DNA from: Thalassotalea hakodatensis
Lineage (GTDB): Bacteria; Pseudomonadota; Gammaproteobacteria; Enterobacterales; Alteromonadaceae
NCBI RefSeq assembly: GCF_030295995.1
Contig: NZ_AP027365.1
Location: 3,256,066 to 3,320,065, forward strand
Direction of reading: 5' to 3'
DNA length: 64,000 nt
Shown here: piece after piece, positions 15,828 to 19,154 of the stretch
Numbering within the stretch: the first letter of the stretch is position 1
Layout of the letters: each line of letters begins with the position of its first letter
Position numbers and translations under genes: made by a program
The notes under the pieces: generated by a model
Seen by the model: only the letters and a program-made list of their open reading frames with translations
The model's database searches: none
Told to the model about the DNA's origin: nothing

Positions 15828-16109
15828 ATGTCAGACGCTTTTCAAGCATTATCAAGCCCAGTTAGAAGAAAAATACTATCTTTGTTAAAAGAGAAAAACC
15901 TAACAGCTGGTGAAATTGCACAAGAAATAGACGTTGCTAAGTCAACTCTTTCTGGACACTTTAATGTTTTAAAGGCCGCTGATTTAGTAACAACACATCG
16001 ACATGGAACAACCATTTATTACTCGCTCAATACTAGTGTTGTTGAAGATCTTATGGCGGGAATGTTTGCCATATTTGGGAAAGATACTTTTAAAGAGCAG
16101 GAGAAGTAA
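15828..16109 (+). CDS. ArsR-family (SdpR-like) autorepressor
   Basis: 93 aa from the ATG at 15828, which has GGAG six bases upstream; an upstream in-frame TTG at 15771 would run through the operator region and is rejected. A winged helix-turn-helix covers nearly the whole protein: FQALSSPVRRKILSLLKE, then AGEIAQEIDVAKSTLSGHFNVLKAADLV as the recognition region. No metal-binding ELCVCDL motif, so it is not a metal sensor of the ArsR/SmtB type. It is followed after 2 nt by an SdpI-like gene, the arrangement of Bacillus sdpR-sdpI, where the membrane protein sequesters the repressor. Confidence 0.88.
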   Translation: MSDAFQALSSPVRRKILSLLKEKNLTAGEIAQEIDVAKSTLSGHFNVLKAADLVTTHRHGTTIYYSLNTSVVEDLMAGMFAIFGKDTFKEQEK

Positions 16110-16111
16110 GC

Positions 16112-16765
16112 ATGAACATTTTTAAAATTAACCTCTTAATTACCACTATCACTATGCTAGTAGCATTATTTATGATTACACAGGTCCCTACAGATATGAT
16201 GTTACCCATTCACTGGAATAGTGCAGGTGAAATAGATAGATATGCAGACGCTGCCACAGCACTTTTGTTTCCGCCTGGAGTAATGGTAGGTTTAATACTG
16301 TTATTAAGCATCTTACGCTATTTAGAACCGAGAAAAGAAAATTTAGTACAATCAAAAAAAGCAACTCATGCAATTGCATTCGCCATAATATTATTACTGG
16401 CTGTATTGGAAGGTGGTTATGTTGCTTTAATTTATGGTTTCACACTCAAAATGCATTTACTCGTGGTCTTTATGGTTGGTATTTGTTTAATGATTGTGGG
16501 CAATTATTTAAGTAAAACACGAAGTAATTACTTTATTGGTATTCGTACTCCATGGACACTTCAAAATGACGAAAATTGGCGCAAAACACATCGATTAGCG
16601 GGTCGCCTGTTTATGGTTTCAGGGTTAGCCGTCAGTGTGACTTGTTGGCTAATTCACGATGACTATTTAACTTACTTAATCATTGGCCTCGTTTTACCAT
16701 CGGCAATTACACCACAAATTTATTCGTGGTGGCTATGGAAACGAGAAGAGAACAATGCTCAATAA
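16112..16765 (+). CDS. SdpI-like membrane protein with DUF1648 domain
   Basis: 217 aa, about six membrane helices. The N-terminal DUF1648 domain shows the P.HW...G..DRY pattern (LPIHWNSAGEIDRYAD), and the C-terminal SdpI domain shows NYFIGIRTPWTL followed by ENWRKTHRLAGR. In Bacillus, SdpI gives immunity to the SDP peptide toxin and signals to SdpR. No toxin gene is visible here, so immunity to an external peptide or a purely sensory role are both possible. Translationally linked to the repressor (2-nt gap). Confidence 0.88.
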   Translation: MNIFKINLLITTITMLVALFMITQVPTDMMLPIHWNSAGEIDRYADAATALLFPPGVMVGLILLLSILRYLEPRKENLVQSKKATHAIAFAIILLLAVLEGGYVALIYGFTLKMHLLVVFMVGICLMIVGNYLSKTRSNYFIGIRTPWTLQNDENWRKTHRLAGRLFMVSGLAVSVTCWLIHDDYLTYLIIGLVLPSAITPQIYSWWLWKREENNAQ

Positions 16766-16776
16766 TTAAGAACAAA

Positions 16777-16841
16777 TGAATTAAATTCACCCGTCATGAT
16801 AATTTATTTCAATTGTCATAGCATGCTCATCTCGATATGCT
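16777..16841 (+). promoter_or_regulatory. LysR-type box plus promoter before a predicted small RNA
   Basis: The 13-mer TGAATTAAATTCA (16777-16789) is a palindrome with T-N11-A form, the classic LysR-type core. A -35 TTGTCA (16813-16818), 17-bp spacer and -10 TATGCT (16836-16841) follow. The box centre is about 65 bp before the predicted start near 16848, the usual position for LysR-type activator binding. The same arrangement with identical spacing occurs at 18027-18091 on the other side of the lysR gene. Confidence 0.55.
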
Positions 16842-16847
16842 GCACTT

Positions 16848-16927
16848 GCTTTTGAAGTCTCCCCAGATTTCTTGCATTTGACGCTTTATGTTTAAGTCCT
16901 AGCGCTGCATTTGCAGCGCTTTTTTTT
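16848..16927 (+). ncRNA. Predicted LysR-controlled small RNA, about 80 nt
   Basis: No ORF lies here, yet the segment has a promoter (-35 TTGTCA, -10 TATGCT, 17-bp spacing) and a strong intrinsic terminator (16901-16927), giving a discrete transcript of about 80 nt. The 5 prime part is unstructured and carries a C-rich stretch CTCCCC (16859-16864), complementary to Shine-Dalgarno sequences, as in many Hfq-dependent sRNAs. It lies directly upstream of a GcvA-like lysR gene, recalling the gcvA/gcvB pairing, although I see no sequence likeness to GcvB. It could instead be the 3 prime end of the sdpI transcript. Not matched to any known family. Confidence 0.45.
16901..16927 (+). terminator. Strong rho-independent terminator
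   Basis: Stem AGCGCTGCA/TGCAGCGCT with a 2-base loop (16901-16920) followed by seven or more T residues. It is 135 nt beyond the sdpI stop, which is unusually far for that gene, and fits the end of the predicted small RNA. Confidence 0.9.
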
Positions 16928-17105
16928 ACGAAAAACGCATCATCAAGAATATCTTTACTACAGCTATGCACCACCTTAGTGCAACCCATGTCACAATGCG
17001 AAGCAGGAATTTAATAGAAATTTAATTTATCCTTATAAATCAGTCAACTAATTTATGGTTTAACACTTGCACTGCATCGTTTAGATTAATAAAGACAAGG
17101 TATAT

Positions 17106-17990
17106 ATGGCTATTCAAACCCCTATTCGCGGCTTAAGATCATTTTGTATCGCCGCTAAATGTTTAAGCTTCAAACATGCTGCTTCACAACTATTTTTAAC
17201 GCCATCAGCAGTGAGCCATCAAATAAAACAGCTTGAAGAACAATTAGGTTTTGAGCTATTTCAACGACAAACGCGTGCTATCGCGTTAACAAGTGCGGGA
17301 AAACAATTTTATAGTGCAGTACAACCGCTTATTTCTGAGCTTGAAAACACTATTTCAAGTTTCACTCATAATCAACAAAATCAAACTATTACTATCTCAA
17401 TGCCCGAGTTTTTTGCCAGTGAATTGTTTGTTCCTAAATTAAGTGACTGGACGGAGAAATACCCAAATATCAATTTACAACTCGAAACCGTTAAAGCAAG
17501 CTCTCCTTCATCTAATAATGCTGATTTATCCATTGTATTAGCTAACGGCGTACCAAACGCCAGCATCGTACAAGAGTTATTCCCAATACGTTATGCACCA
17601 GCTTGTAATAAAAAACTTTATAAACAGTGGGTAAATCATGGAATTGATGCCCTTAAACATGTACCGCTGATTTTACATCAGTCAAGACCATGGTCATGGC
17701 ATCAATGGGCTGAAAAAATGAATATTGATGACTTTGATCCAAAACAAATTATCCAATTTGATAGCATGTTTGGCGTTGCAAGAGCAGCTCAGCAAGGCAT
17801 GGGAATTGCGTTAGTACCTTTGCCAATGAGCAAAACATGGTTTAGTGAAAAACTACTGATTAAACTGTTCGATCAAGAATTAGTCACAAAAGATAAATAT
17901 TACTTGATTCAGCATGAAAACATTGAAGTTGGCAGCGCAATGGATACCTTCGCTAAGTGGGTAGAAAGAAACTTCAATGCTGATCATTAA
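17106..17990 (+). CDS. LysR-family transcriptional regulator (GcvA-like)
   Basis: 294 aa, full length. The N-terminal winged helix-turn-helix (about residues 8-65) reads FCIAAKCLSFKHAASQLFLTPSAVSHQIKQLEE and continues with LGFELFQRQTRAIALTSAG, closest in style to GcvA/AmpR-type regulators. A two-lobed effector-binding domain follows. Effector unknown. Its gene is flanked by two near-identical regulatory regions (16777-16841 and 18027-18091), each with a LysR-type palindrome at about -65 of a predicted promoter, so the likely targets are the small RNA upstream and the two-gene unit downstream. Confidence 0.92.
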   Translation: MAIQTPIRGLRSFCIAAKCLSFKHAASQLFLTPSAVSHQIKQLEEQLGFELFQRQTRAIALTSAGKQFYSAVQPLISELENTISSFTHNQQNQTITISMPEFFASELFVPKLSDWTEKYPNINLQLETVKASSPSSNNADLSIVLANGVPNASIVQELFPIRYAPACNKKLYKQWVNHGIDALKHVPLILHQSRPWSWHQWAEKMNIDDFDPKQIIQFDSMFGVARAAQQGMGIALVPLPMSKTWFSEKLLIKLFDQELVTKDKYYLIQHENIEVGSAMDTFAKWVERNFNADH

Positions 17991-18026
17991 TTATCAGCCT
18001 TCCTAATTTACCACATCACTGACAGA

Positions 18027-18091
18027 TGAATAAAATTCACCTAACGACTGTATTTTTATCGTTTGTCAGTAAAGTCGGTTCCTCTTATTGT
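18027..18091 (+). promoter_or_regulatory. Second LysR-type box plus promoter
   Basis: TGAATAAAATTCA (18027-18039) has the same arms as the box at 16777; ACC follows in both. In both copies 22 bp separate this from TGTCA. Here -35 is TTGTCA (18063-18068), spacer 17 bp, -10 TATTGT (18086-18091). It precedes the gene at 18153 by about 60 nt. Confidence 0.55.
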
Positions 18092-18152
18092 TTACCCATC
18101 AATTGCATTTAACTTGTAATTGACAAAACACATGAATCAAACAAGAGGATAA

Positions 18153-18671
18153 ATGATGAAATTAACACACCCAACACTACTATCGCTTTCAATGGCAAGT
18201 ATGCTTGCAACTGCCAGCCCAAGCGAAACAACCTTAGAAAAATTTAAAATTGCTGTCATTAAAGACACCACTGGCTCATCTGAGTTAATGCAAGGTGATT
18301 ACACATCAGGCATGCATAAACTAACTTCGGCTAAAGAGTCATCTACCGGTTTCGATATCGATATGGGGTTATGTGCTGCAAACTTAAAACACCTTAAATT
18401 TGAGCAAGCAGAAGAAGCTTGTTCTGACGCAATAGAAGGAATTGACGCTCATGCAGCAAGAAGCCGTGAAGGTAAATTTATTAAAGCATTAGCGTTAAGT
18501 AACCGCGGTATTGTTCGCTATTTACAAGACGATAGCTATGGTGCTCTTGAAGACTTTAGCAGTGCACTTTTACTTTCTGATAGCAAAGTGATTAAAGATA
18601 ACTTAGCGTATCTAAAAGTAAGCATGAGCAAAAGAACCTTAGGTACAGACACTGTTGAATTAACAGAATAA
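18153..18671 (+). CDS. Small secreted TPR-like protein, putative LysR target
   Basis: 172 aa. A short hydrophobic start (LTHPTLLSLSMASMLATASPS) looks like a signal peptide with cleavage near the ATA-SP segment. The rest contains helix pairs resembling degenerate tetratricopeptide repeats (GDYTSGMHKLTSA, FEQAEEACSDAIEG, DSYGALEDFSSALLL), suggesting a periplasmic protein-binding scaffold. Start ATG at 18153 with AGAGGAT just upstream; the next codon is also ATG. Function unknown. Followed 13 nt later by a 50-aa gene in the same unit, and preceded by a LysR-type box and promoter. Confidence 0.8.
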   Translation: MMKLTHPTLLSLSMASMLATASPSETTLEKFKIAVIKDTTGSSELMQGDYTSGMHKLTSAKESSTGFDIDMGLCAANLKHLKFEQAEEACSDAIEGIDAHAARSREGKFIKALALSNRGIVRYLQDDSYGALEDFSSALLLSDSKVIKDNLAYLKVSMSKRTLGTDTVELTE

Positions 18672-18684
18672 TAAGGAGCATGTA

Positions 18685-18837
18685 ATGAAACGCAATTTGC
18701 TAACAGACTACTTATTAAAACAATCGCTATTGTTGCATCAATTAACGCATTTAAACCTCGCACAATGGGACATTAATGTATTACAGCAAGCACAAATAAT
18801 TAATCAACGACAGAGTGATATAAACGAATGCAACTAA
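18685..18837 (+). CDS. Small protein, 50 aa, in operon with the TPR-like gene
   Basis: A short reading frame with an excellent ribosome binding site (AAGGAG, 6 nt before the ATG). The product is rich in Leu, Gln and Asn (LLLHQLTHLNLAQWDINVLQQ) and would form amphipathic helices; no signal peptide or membrane helix is evident. It begins 13 nt after the TPR-like gene and ends 11 nt before an intrinsic terminator, so it is the last gene of a two-gene transcript. Not recognised; coding status rests on RBS and context. Confidence 0.6.
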   Translation: MKRNLLTDYLLKQSLLLHQLTHLNLAQWDINVLQQAQIINQRQSDINECN

Positions 18838-18848
18838 TAACCTAATTC

Positions 18849-18882
18849 GGCGAGAATGAAGCTAAGTTCTCGCCTCTTCTTA
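18849..18882 (+). terminator. Rho-independent terminator after the small-protein operon
   Basis: Stem GGCGAGAA/TTCTCGCC (18849-18856 and 18867-18874) followed by TCTTCTT. It closes the two-gene unit begun at 18153. The remaining 270 bases to 19154 hold nothing I can name besides the promoter region of the next gene. Confidence 0.8.
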
Positions 18883-19154
18883 ATGAATTACACACTACCG
18901 TATAGATAGGAGCCGTCGGTTAACAAGCGGAAATTATCAGTTTTTATTTGAATGCCTACCACAGAACGTTGATGCCTCTTTATACTAATTTATGTAACCT
19001 ATAACGAATTATTCATAGTAAACCTAATAATTATTTTACTTAATTTATGATTTTAACAAGTATTGCTTACCTCCAGTTCAGTTTAGCTACTAGAAAGCAT
19101 TAGCATAGCTTGCTAGAATCTACGCATTTTAAAATCTTAAGAGAACGATACAAG

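Follow-up and report, generated by a model that had tools for sequence, protein, structure and literature searches.

What does a LysR-type regulator govern when the same palindromic box and the same promoter spacing stand on both sides of its gene, once before a pair of small protein genes and once before a stretch that seems to hold no gene at all? This arrangement occurs in a 64 000-nucleotide stretch of the Thalassotalea hakodatensis genome (the window), where all its parts lie on the + strand between an sdpI-like gene and yebC. An initial annotation had read it as a compact regulon of one regulator, one small RNA (sRNA) and one operon, for which no described counterpart was known. Directly 5′ of the first box lies a gene pair (15828-16765): one gene for an SdpR-type repressor (NF033789, above cut-off) and, after it, one of the SdpI/YfhL family.

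Two matching modules around a lysR gene

The regulator gene (17106-17990) encodes a protein of 294 aa carrying both LysR-type domains (Pfam HTH_1, 5.9e-21; LysR_substrate, 6.7e-21). The nearest curated family is GcvA, with a score of 205.5 bits for the NCBIfam GcvA subfamily, below its cut-off of 288. Named loci with LysR proteins 100 and 99% identical to this one belong to Thalassotalea. The gene is flanked by two TGAA-N5-TTCA palindromes, both of which had been picked out by the initial annotation: box 1, TGAATTAAATTCA (16777-16789), and box 2, TGAATAAAATTCA (18027-18039). Between box and TTGTCA hexamer the gap is 23 nt in both modules; it had been described as ACC plus 22 bp, which is off by one, as the true reading is CC plus 21. 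A 17-nt spacer and the expected −10 hexamer follow in each case, giving a predicted sRNA promoter at 16813-16841 (TTGTCA from 16813, TATGCT at 16836-16841) and a predicted promoter for the downstream operon at 18063-18091 (TTGTCA from 18063, TATTGT at 18086-18091). The box centres lie approximately 65 nt 5′ of the predicted starts in both modules. Each box is a candidate operator half, box 1 of the sRNA promoter (centre near −65) and box 2 of the second promoter.

The coincidence of spacing had been taken as meaningful, and it does exceed chance: the strict composite occurs twice in the window and in 0/100 dinucleotide-shuffled windows. This significance rests on the whole module and not on the palindrome, since the bare palindrome, present twice in the window against 0.21 expected, also reached two copies in 2/100 shuffles. 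Pairs of −35 and −10 elements are by themselves unremarkable (nine promoter-like sites in 16700-19000 versus 8.3 expected), and a consensus scan of the region yielded two terminator-like sites versus 1.6 expected. Across the T. hakodatensis genome, TGAAN5TTCA-N23-TTGNC has three matches, namely the two modules and one TTGGC site inside an ORF, leaving the modules as the only composites of the TTGTC type. The palindrome TGAATN3ATTCA is found at 18 sites in this genome, both boxes included. Fourteen of the other 16 were inspected and nine of these fall within ORFs of at least 90 aa, so the palindrome alone defines no regulon.

Box 2 precedes two ORFs, in keeping with the earlier reading of a TPR-like gene followed by a small protein. 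The first (18153-18671) encodes a TPR-like protein of 172 aa with an N terminus that, by eye, resembles a signal peptide; the second (18685-18837) encodes a microprotein of 50 aa of the SQWD type (here LAQWD), with a terminator-like stem 3′ of it in the consensus scan (18849-18874). The larger protein is predicted to adopt a TPR helical fold (mean pLDDT 85.2). Comparison of the model with the PDB returned mainly TPR domains, the best at E 1.3e-3 and none passing E 0.001, while Pfam TPR_1 matched the protein at E 8e-5, below the gathering score. Homologues of the TPR gene are present in 60 of 85 loci. Small ORFs with the motif [AS][QE]WD number 29 in the same 85 loci, and 28 of these are directly 3′ of a TPR gene (27 independent pairs, as L145 and L423 are one record); the 29th, in L084, a locus lacking the TPR gene, comes after the operator. 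The microprotein is therefore common, being found after the TPR gene in 28/60 TPR-bearing loci, but not universal, as the motif was not found in the others.

A composite operator in relatives

The initial annotation had staked itself beforehand on the two-box arrangement being kept in relatives that retain the lysR gene, and by sequence it is kept. Among 59 genomes, including that of T. hakodatensis (G000), 13 have a lysR match of at least 55% identity. In 13/13 of these orthologous loci TTGTC is found 3′ of lysR exactly 23 nt past the box position, and box 2 is a perfect TGAAN5TTCA in 10/13, being degenerate in G004, G006 and G008. At the aligned position of box 1, G003 has TGAATTTTCTTCA, G001 has TTAATTAAATTCA and G002 has TGAAAAATACTCA, the last two each degenerate by one arm base; the spacing of the sRNA promoter recurs in all three genomes. 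The extended set comprised 80 named loci from Thalassotalea, Colwellia, Pseudoalteromonas, Rheinheimera, Arsukibacterium, Psychrosphaera and others. A downstream box at the 23-nt spacing retains seven or eight of the eight arm bases in 45/80 loci and six in seven more, giving 52/80 with at least 6/8. No good downstream composite was found within 400 nt in 28/80 loci, several of which also have no TPR gene in the locus.

A 43-nt matrix was trained only on downstream (TPR-gene) operators, 51 of them unique. Operators were picked by score (57 TPR operators and 31 of 37 sRNA matches passed), and the matrix consequently favours conserved sites. Scanning the 80 loci at 12 bits or more gave 119 matches: 60 downstream of lysR, 32 before sRNAs and 27 others. 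None of the 32 sRNA-side operators was in the training set, and the matrix thus found them independently. The highest score in five dinucleotide-shuffled versions of all these loci, together 8.1 million positions, was 6.4 bits. An operator precedes 60/62 TPR genes, a figure that is partly circular because most of these operators trained the matrix. The conserved operator extends over approximately 43 nt, TGAA-N5-TTCA ... TCGTTTGTC, and includes a second conserved element, ~TnTCGTTTGTC, which the −35 of the sRNA promoter overlaps. On these sequence comparisons, the relatives probably represent one regulatory family, a conclusion that we regard as well supported.

Which protein reads the boxes can be argued from the same data. 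If another regulator such as MetR bound them, the lysR gene would be a mere neighbour. The MetR consensus is TGAANNNNNTTCA and it fits both boxes; moreover, the T. hakodatensis genome has a TGAATN3ATTCA site close to a pair of DUF1852/methionine-synthase-like genes (named by eye) and also encodes a MetR-like protein (37% identity). However, approximately 43 nt are conserved here, not 13, the operator travels with this lysR, and one genome, G015, keeps box 2 with no MetR match at 1e-30. Given the G015 result and the length of the conserved operator, we consider control by MetR very improbable. An ArgR box was also considered and rejected, as its 5-4-5 spacing differs.

We infer instead that the adjacent LysR-type protein binds the two-part operator, contacting TGAA-N5-TTCA near −65 and ~TnTCGTTTGTC over the −35, and that once bound it would activate both promoters, that of the sRNA and that of the TPR gene. 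LysR activators classically use sites at approximately −65 and −35. RNA polymerase could equally be blocked by a LysR protein sitting on the −35, which would suit a regulator that binds both operators but represses them, or that switches sign with an inducer; we hold this to be unlikely, as the −65/−35 geometry fits activation and the −35 is a weak TTGTCA. Under activation, the second promoter would yield the TPR protein, whose start resembles a signal peptide, joined in this genome and in many relatives by the SQWD microprotein.

A predicted two-hairpin RNA and its copies

The segment behind the first promoter (16848-16927, + strand) had been called ORF-less and predicted to produce an RNA of approximately 80 nt ending in a strong terminator. 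There is indeed no + strand ORF of at least 45 aa over it, but a 57-aa ORF on the − strand overlaps. The predicted terminator is an 8-bp stem, AGCGCTGC-ATTT-GCAGCGCT, followed by a T tract (16901-16927). Towards the 5′ end, a predicted stem-loop, GAAGUCUCCCCAGAUUUC (16854-16871), carries a C-rich loop that is the presumed seed. The segment folds better than 200/200 shuffles (z −3.8), and two covariance models (R1 and R2) match it, at 3272910-3272993 of the genome.

DNA similarity places the segment upstream of lysR in G001, G003 and G002 and elsewhere in G015, in total 5/59 genomes including that of T. hakodatensis, and the first covariance model was built from these five. With this model the sRNA was found upstream of lysR in 27/31 Colwelliaceae-type loci at E ≤ 1 (24 at ≤ 0.05), and two of the four loci without a match have almost no upstream sequence. 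The 39 model matches in the loci were reduced by two (L100, minus strand; L083, at 40), and one retained match (L087, at 5013) falls inside lysR. The G015 copy (L060), away from lysR, lies beside a peroxiredoxin-like gene (name by eye).

Copies can also occur in tandem, five in Colwellia sp. C2M11 and four in C. polaris, with an operator-like sequence before each (at least 12 bits in 4/5 and 4/4, respectively). The proposal of one regulator, one sRNA and one operon sharing an operator is thus supported by sequence for the window, but in some relatives the sRNA is present in two to five copies. An alignment of 32 copies (A5; 30 distinct) allowed covariation to be assessed: 12/15 pairs changed on both sides, with 0/500 shuffles as high, divided between helix 1, the 5′ hairpin (5/7 pairs; 83.7% of cells paired), and helix 2, the terminator (7/8 pairs; 99.6% of cells paired), although these pair counts lean towards the model because the alignment was fitted to it. 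The C-rich loop hairpin is present in 28/30 copies, and the loop is nearly invariant, among the most conserved columns. These features support a predicted RNA of approximately 80 nt with two covarying hairpins, the second a Rho-independent terminator. At the level of sequence, the shared operator, the RNA structure, the conservation of both and the tandem duplication are all supported. The first promoter would accordingly give rise to a trans-acting sRNA whose 5′ stem-loop presents the C-rich loop (UCCCC).

A refined model matched 65/395 family genomes when tallied by score. A lysR ortholog is present in 61 of these 65 versus 149/395 overall, a co-occurrence with a Fisher value of 2e-25 that ignores relatedness. 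In a tally that used 66 of the 149 lysR rows, 58/65 genomes have an sRNA copy in the same orientation as lysR and less than 3 kb 5′ of it, nine of them more than one such copy, and the usual distance is 146-200 nt. The four sRNA-positive genomes in which no lysR ortholog was found at 1e-80 (G031, G034, G099 and G192) were checked against the full table; three are 80-87% complete and G192 is rated 100%. The G192 copy (L421) has a weak operator of 19 bits. Two genomes, G110 and G072, carry operator-equipped sRNA arrays (four and five copies) on a contig other than that of lysR, where the arrays precede an operator-bearing TPR gene.

The position of the segment, preceding lysR in the same orientation and usually at that short distance, would also suit an attenuated 5′ leader of lysR in place of a free sRNA. 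Against this, a strong terminator precedes lysR, tandem copies each have a terminator of their own, the arrays of G110 and G072 are away from lysR, and single copies are found elsewhere in G015 and other genomes. A leader is therefore highly unlikely in our judgement, and we treat the segment as a probable free sRNA.

Distant matches need more care. We inspected 17 matches of the refined model (R2) in 11 loci. L413 and L415 were rejected as family members as the C-rich loop is absent, and L414, L416 and L417 were rejected as they belong to a different C-loop family without a LysR operator; at least 5/27 distant matches are thus non-members. This second C-loop RNA-like family, AGATTCTCCCCTCGG ... 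CGCTCCTCATTTGAGGGGCG, is repeated within each of L414, L416 and L417, which are from the Colwellia group, and in L414 and L417 it lies near AhpC-like and OxyR-like genes (names by eye). Other UCUCCCC RNAs exist in Colwellia, a point against the targets proposed below. Neither the window nor eight loci contained a match to any of 4227 Rfam families at the gathering score.

Candidate targets and related circuits

The initial annotation had proposed CTCCCC as the seed of the RNA. Candidate targets were screened with the sole pattern GGGGAGA-N1-8-ATG, keeping ORFs of at least 60 aa. The pattern has 14 sites in the T. hakodatensis genome versus eight for the reversed pattern, and 9/14 start such ORFs. 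All sites were inspected in five sRNA carriers (14 in G000, 15 in G001, 19 in G003, 16 in G002 and 29 in G105; 93 in total, 42 dropped), with four further carriers (G065, G029, G032 and G010) outside the ORF reading; one of ten G010 sites was fetched but does not enter the counts. The controls inspected were G024 (12 distinct of 13), G005 (16/16), G022 (18/18) and G025 (14 distinct of 17), in total 60 sites with 37 dropped; G007, G012, G014 and G017 were pattern-searched but lay outside the ORF reading. Pfam scans covered 8/9 ORFs of G000, 10/12 of G105, 7/7 of G002 and 23/23 control ORFs, while for G001 and G003 the classes come from BLASTP comparison with G000.

The eight scanned G000 targets comprise three TonB-dependent receptors, a sodium:solute symporter, a periplasmic binding protein, a DUF1302 protein, a lipase and MrpF. 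Sites at the DUF1302 and lipase genes recur in 5/5 carriers inspected, those at two receptor types (L227 and L237) in 4/5, those at the symporter, binding protein and MrpF in 3/5 and that at receptor L226 in two. TonB receptors make up 3/9 seed-bearing ORFs in G000, 3/11 in G001, 2/12 in G003, 4/12 in G105 and 0/7 in G002, and none of the 23 seed-bearing ORFs of the four control genomes (0/23). G002 and G105 weigh most in these comparisons, because G000, G001 and G003 are closely related; at DUF1302 and lipase their identity is 74-77%. One seed-bearing control ORF, in G025, is an ammonium transporter. At the DUF1302 site, ten exact bases are complementary to the sRNA. When duplex energies were compared with those of the shuffled 5′ part of the sRNA, a test biased in favour because the targets were chosen for the seed, none of 200 shuffles was as strong for DUF1302 (0/200) and 1-6/200 were for five targets. 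For receptors L227 and L237 the energies are weak, with 20/200 shuffles as strong for L227 and 82/200, no better than shuffles, for L237.

Envelope uptake genes recur in the carriers, but control G024, with no detected lysR or sRNA, also has the DUF1302 and lipase sites. That overlap, together with a target case built on one 7-nt seed, suits an RNA that binds a protein or acts as an RNA sponge, the GGGGAGA genes being coincidental. Such a role is unlikely, we believe, as few alignment columns are better conserved than those of the C-rich loop and TonB receptors appear among the seed ORFs of 4/5 carriers versus 0/23 in controls, with the reservation that three of those carriers are close relatives. 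The data give moderate support to an anti-Shine-Dalgarno role of the sRNA on envelope uptake genes. We infer that the loop pairs with Shine-Dalgarno sequences containing GGGGA, and that pairing would lower translation of TonB-dependent receptors, the DUF1302 protein, the lipoprotein lipase and the sodium:solute symporter. For the locus as a whole, it is probable from its sequence that the LysR protein activates both an anti-Shine-Dalgarno sRNA that represses uptake proteins and the TPR operon.

A literature search, which covered few subscription papers, found nothing on the locus and one sRNA study in a near group, reportedly concerning the Csr sRNAs of Pseudoalteromonas fuliginea. Among better-known circuits, GcvA-GcvB of the Enterobacteria also places a LysR regulator beside an sRNA gene limiting uptake proteins, and GcvA is the nearest curated subfamily of the regulator described here. 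GcvB, however, comes from one gene, divergently oriented, uses another seed and has an Rfam model, whereas the LysR protein here scores below the GcvA cut-off and its RNA has no Rfam match. The MetR regulon shares the box, as discussed above, but the operator here is longer. Sibling sRNAs exist in Neisseria. LhrC is reported as a multicopy sRNA that depends on LisRK, and the paper discusses a UCCC motif (PMC4132741); several similar sRNAs and the UCCC motif are shared features, but control is by LisRK there and putatively by LysR here, and the Rfam search gave no sign of a sequence relation.

The claim that no system of this composition had been described overlooked VtlR of the Rhizobiales. 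There, the gene of a LysR regulator adjoins tandem AbcR sRNA genes; the regulator reportedly activates AbcR1 directly, as it does a small hypothetical protein, and AbcR1 mainly affects transport genes (PMC7486931). AbcR sRNAs are reported to reach transporter mRNAs by short motifs (PMC5461406). The likeness of VtlR/LsrB-AbcR lies in a lysR gene adjoining the sRNA gene or genes, here one copy in the window and up to five in tandem in relatives. The proposed VtlR box is GCAT-N3-TG-N3-T (PMC7486931), in contrast to TGAA-N5-TTCA here, and in Agrobacterium VtlR reportedly controls AbcR1 and not AbcR2, whereas here an operator stands at nearly every copy examined. The regulators are related at the level of the LysR family. 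Because of the different box and the lack of an Rfam match for the RNA, we view VtlR-AbcR as a parallel and not the same system. By this comparison it is the circuit that the locus most resembles, and the locus appears to be a new variant of the same kind of circuit.

By sequence, the operator also occurs in other lineages, before other segments. In Psychrosphaera (L128 and L132), three and five operators are found upstream of lysR, each leading to a terminator-ended segment unlike the Colwelliaceae RNA, with a CUCCUC element in 7/8. In Pseudoalteromonas, an ORF-less hairpin unit of approximately 135 nt follows the operator in 8/20 loci, in two to three tandem copies in L109, L112-L115, L130 and L146, the eighth locus being cut off. 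L143 (Alishewanella) and L147 (Rheinheimera) have an operator followed by an ORF-less, terminator-ended segment of approximately 105 nt, also unlike the Colwelliaceae RNA. Operator-bearing TPR paralogs are present in further Pseudoalteromonas loci; in Pseudoalteromonas shioyasakiensis (L120, 7107-10257) there are three, each with its own LysR operator, some distance from lysR. A tentative reading, which we hold with less than even confidence, is that across Alteromonadales one LysR protein and its conserved two-part operator form a constant socket into which different noncoding outputs can be plugged. The TPR protein, often accompanied by the SQWD microprotein, would be the recurrent protein partner, perhaps working in the same pathway of envelope uptake.

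If the proposed circuit is correct, it would constitute an unreported sRNA regulon in marine bacteria, namely Colwellia, Thalassotalea and their kin. It would also represent a circuit of LysR protein, sRNA and small protein in Gammaproteobacteria parallel to VtlR-AbcR. As no sequence link between the two was found, this design may have arisen more than once for the control of nutrient uptake. Lineages with one to five copies would offer a natural series in which to ask why bacteria multiply sibling sRNAs.
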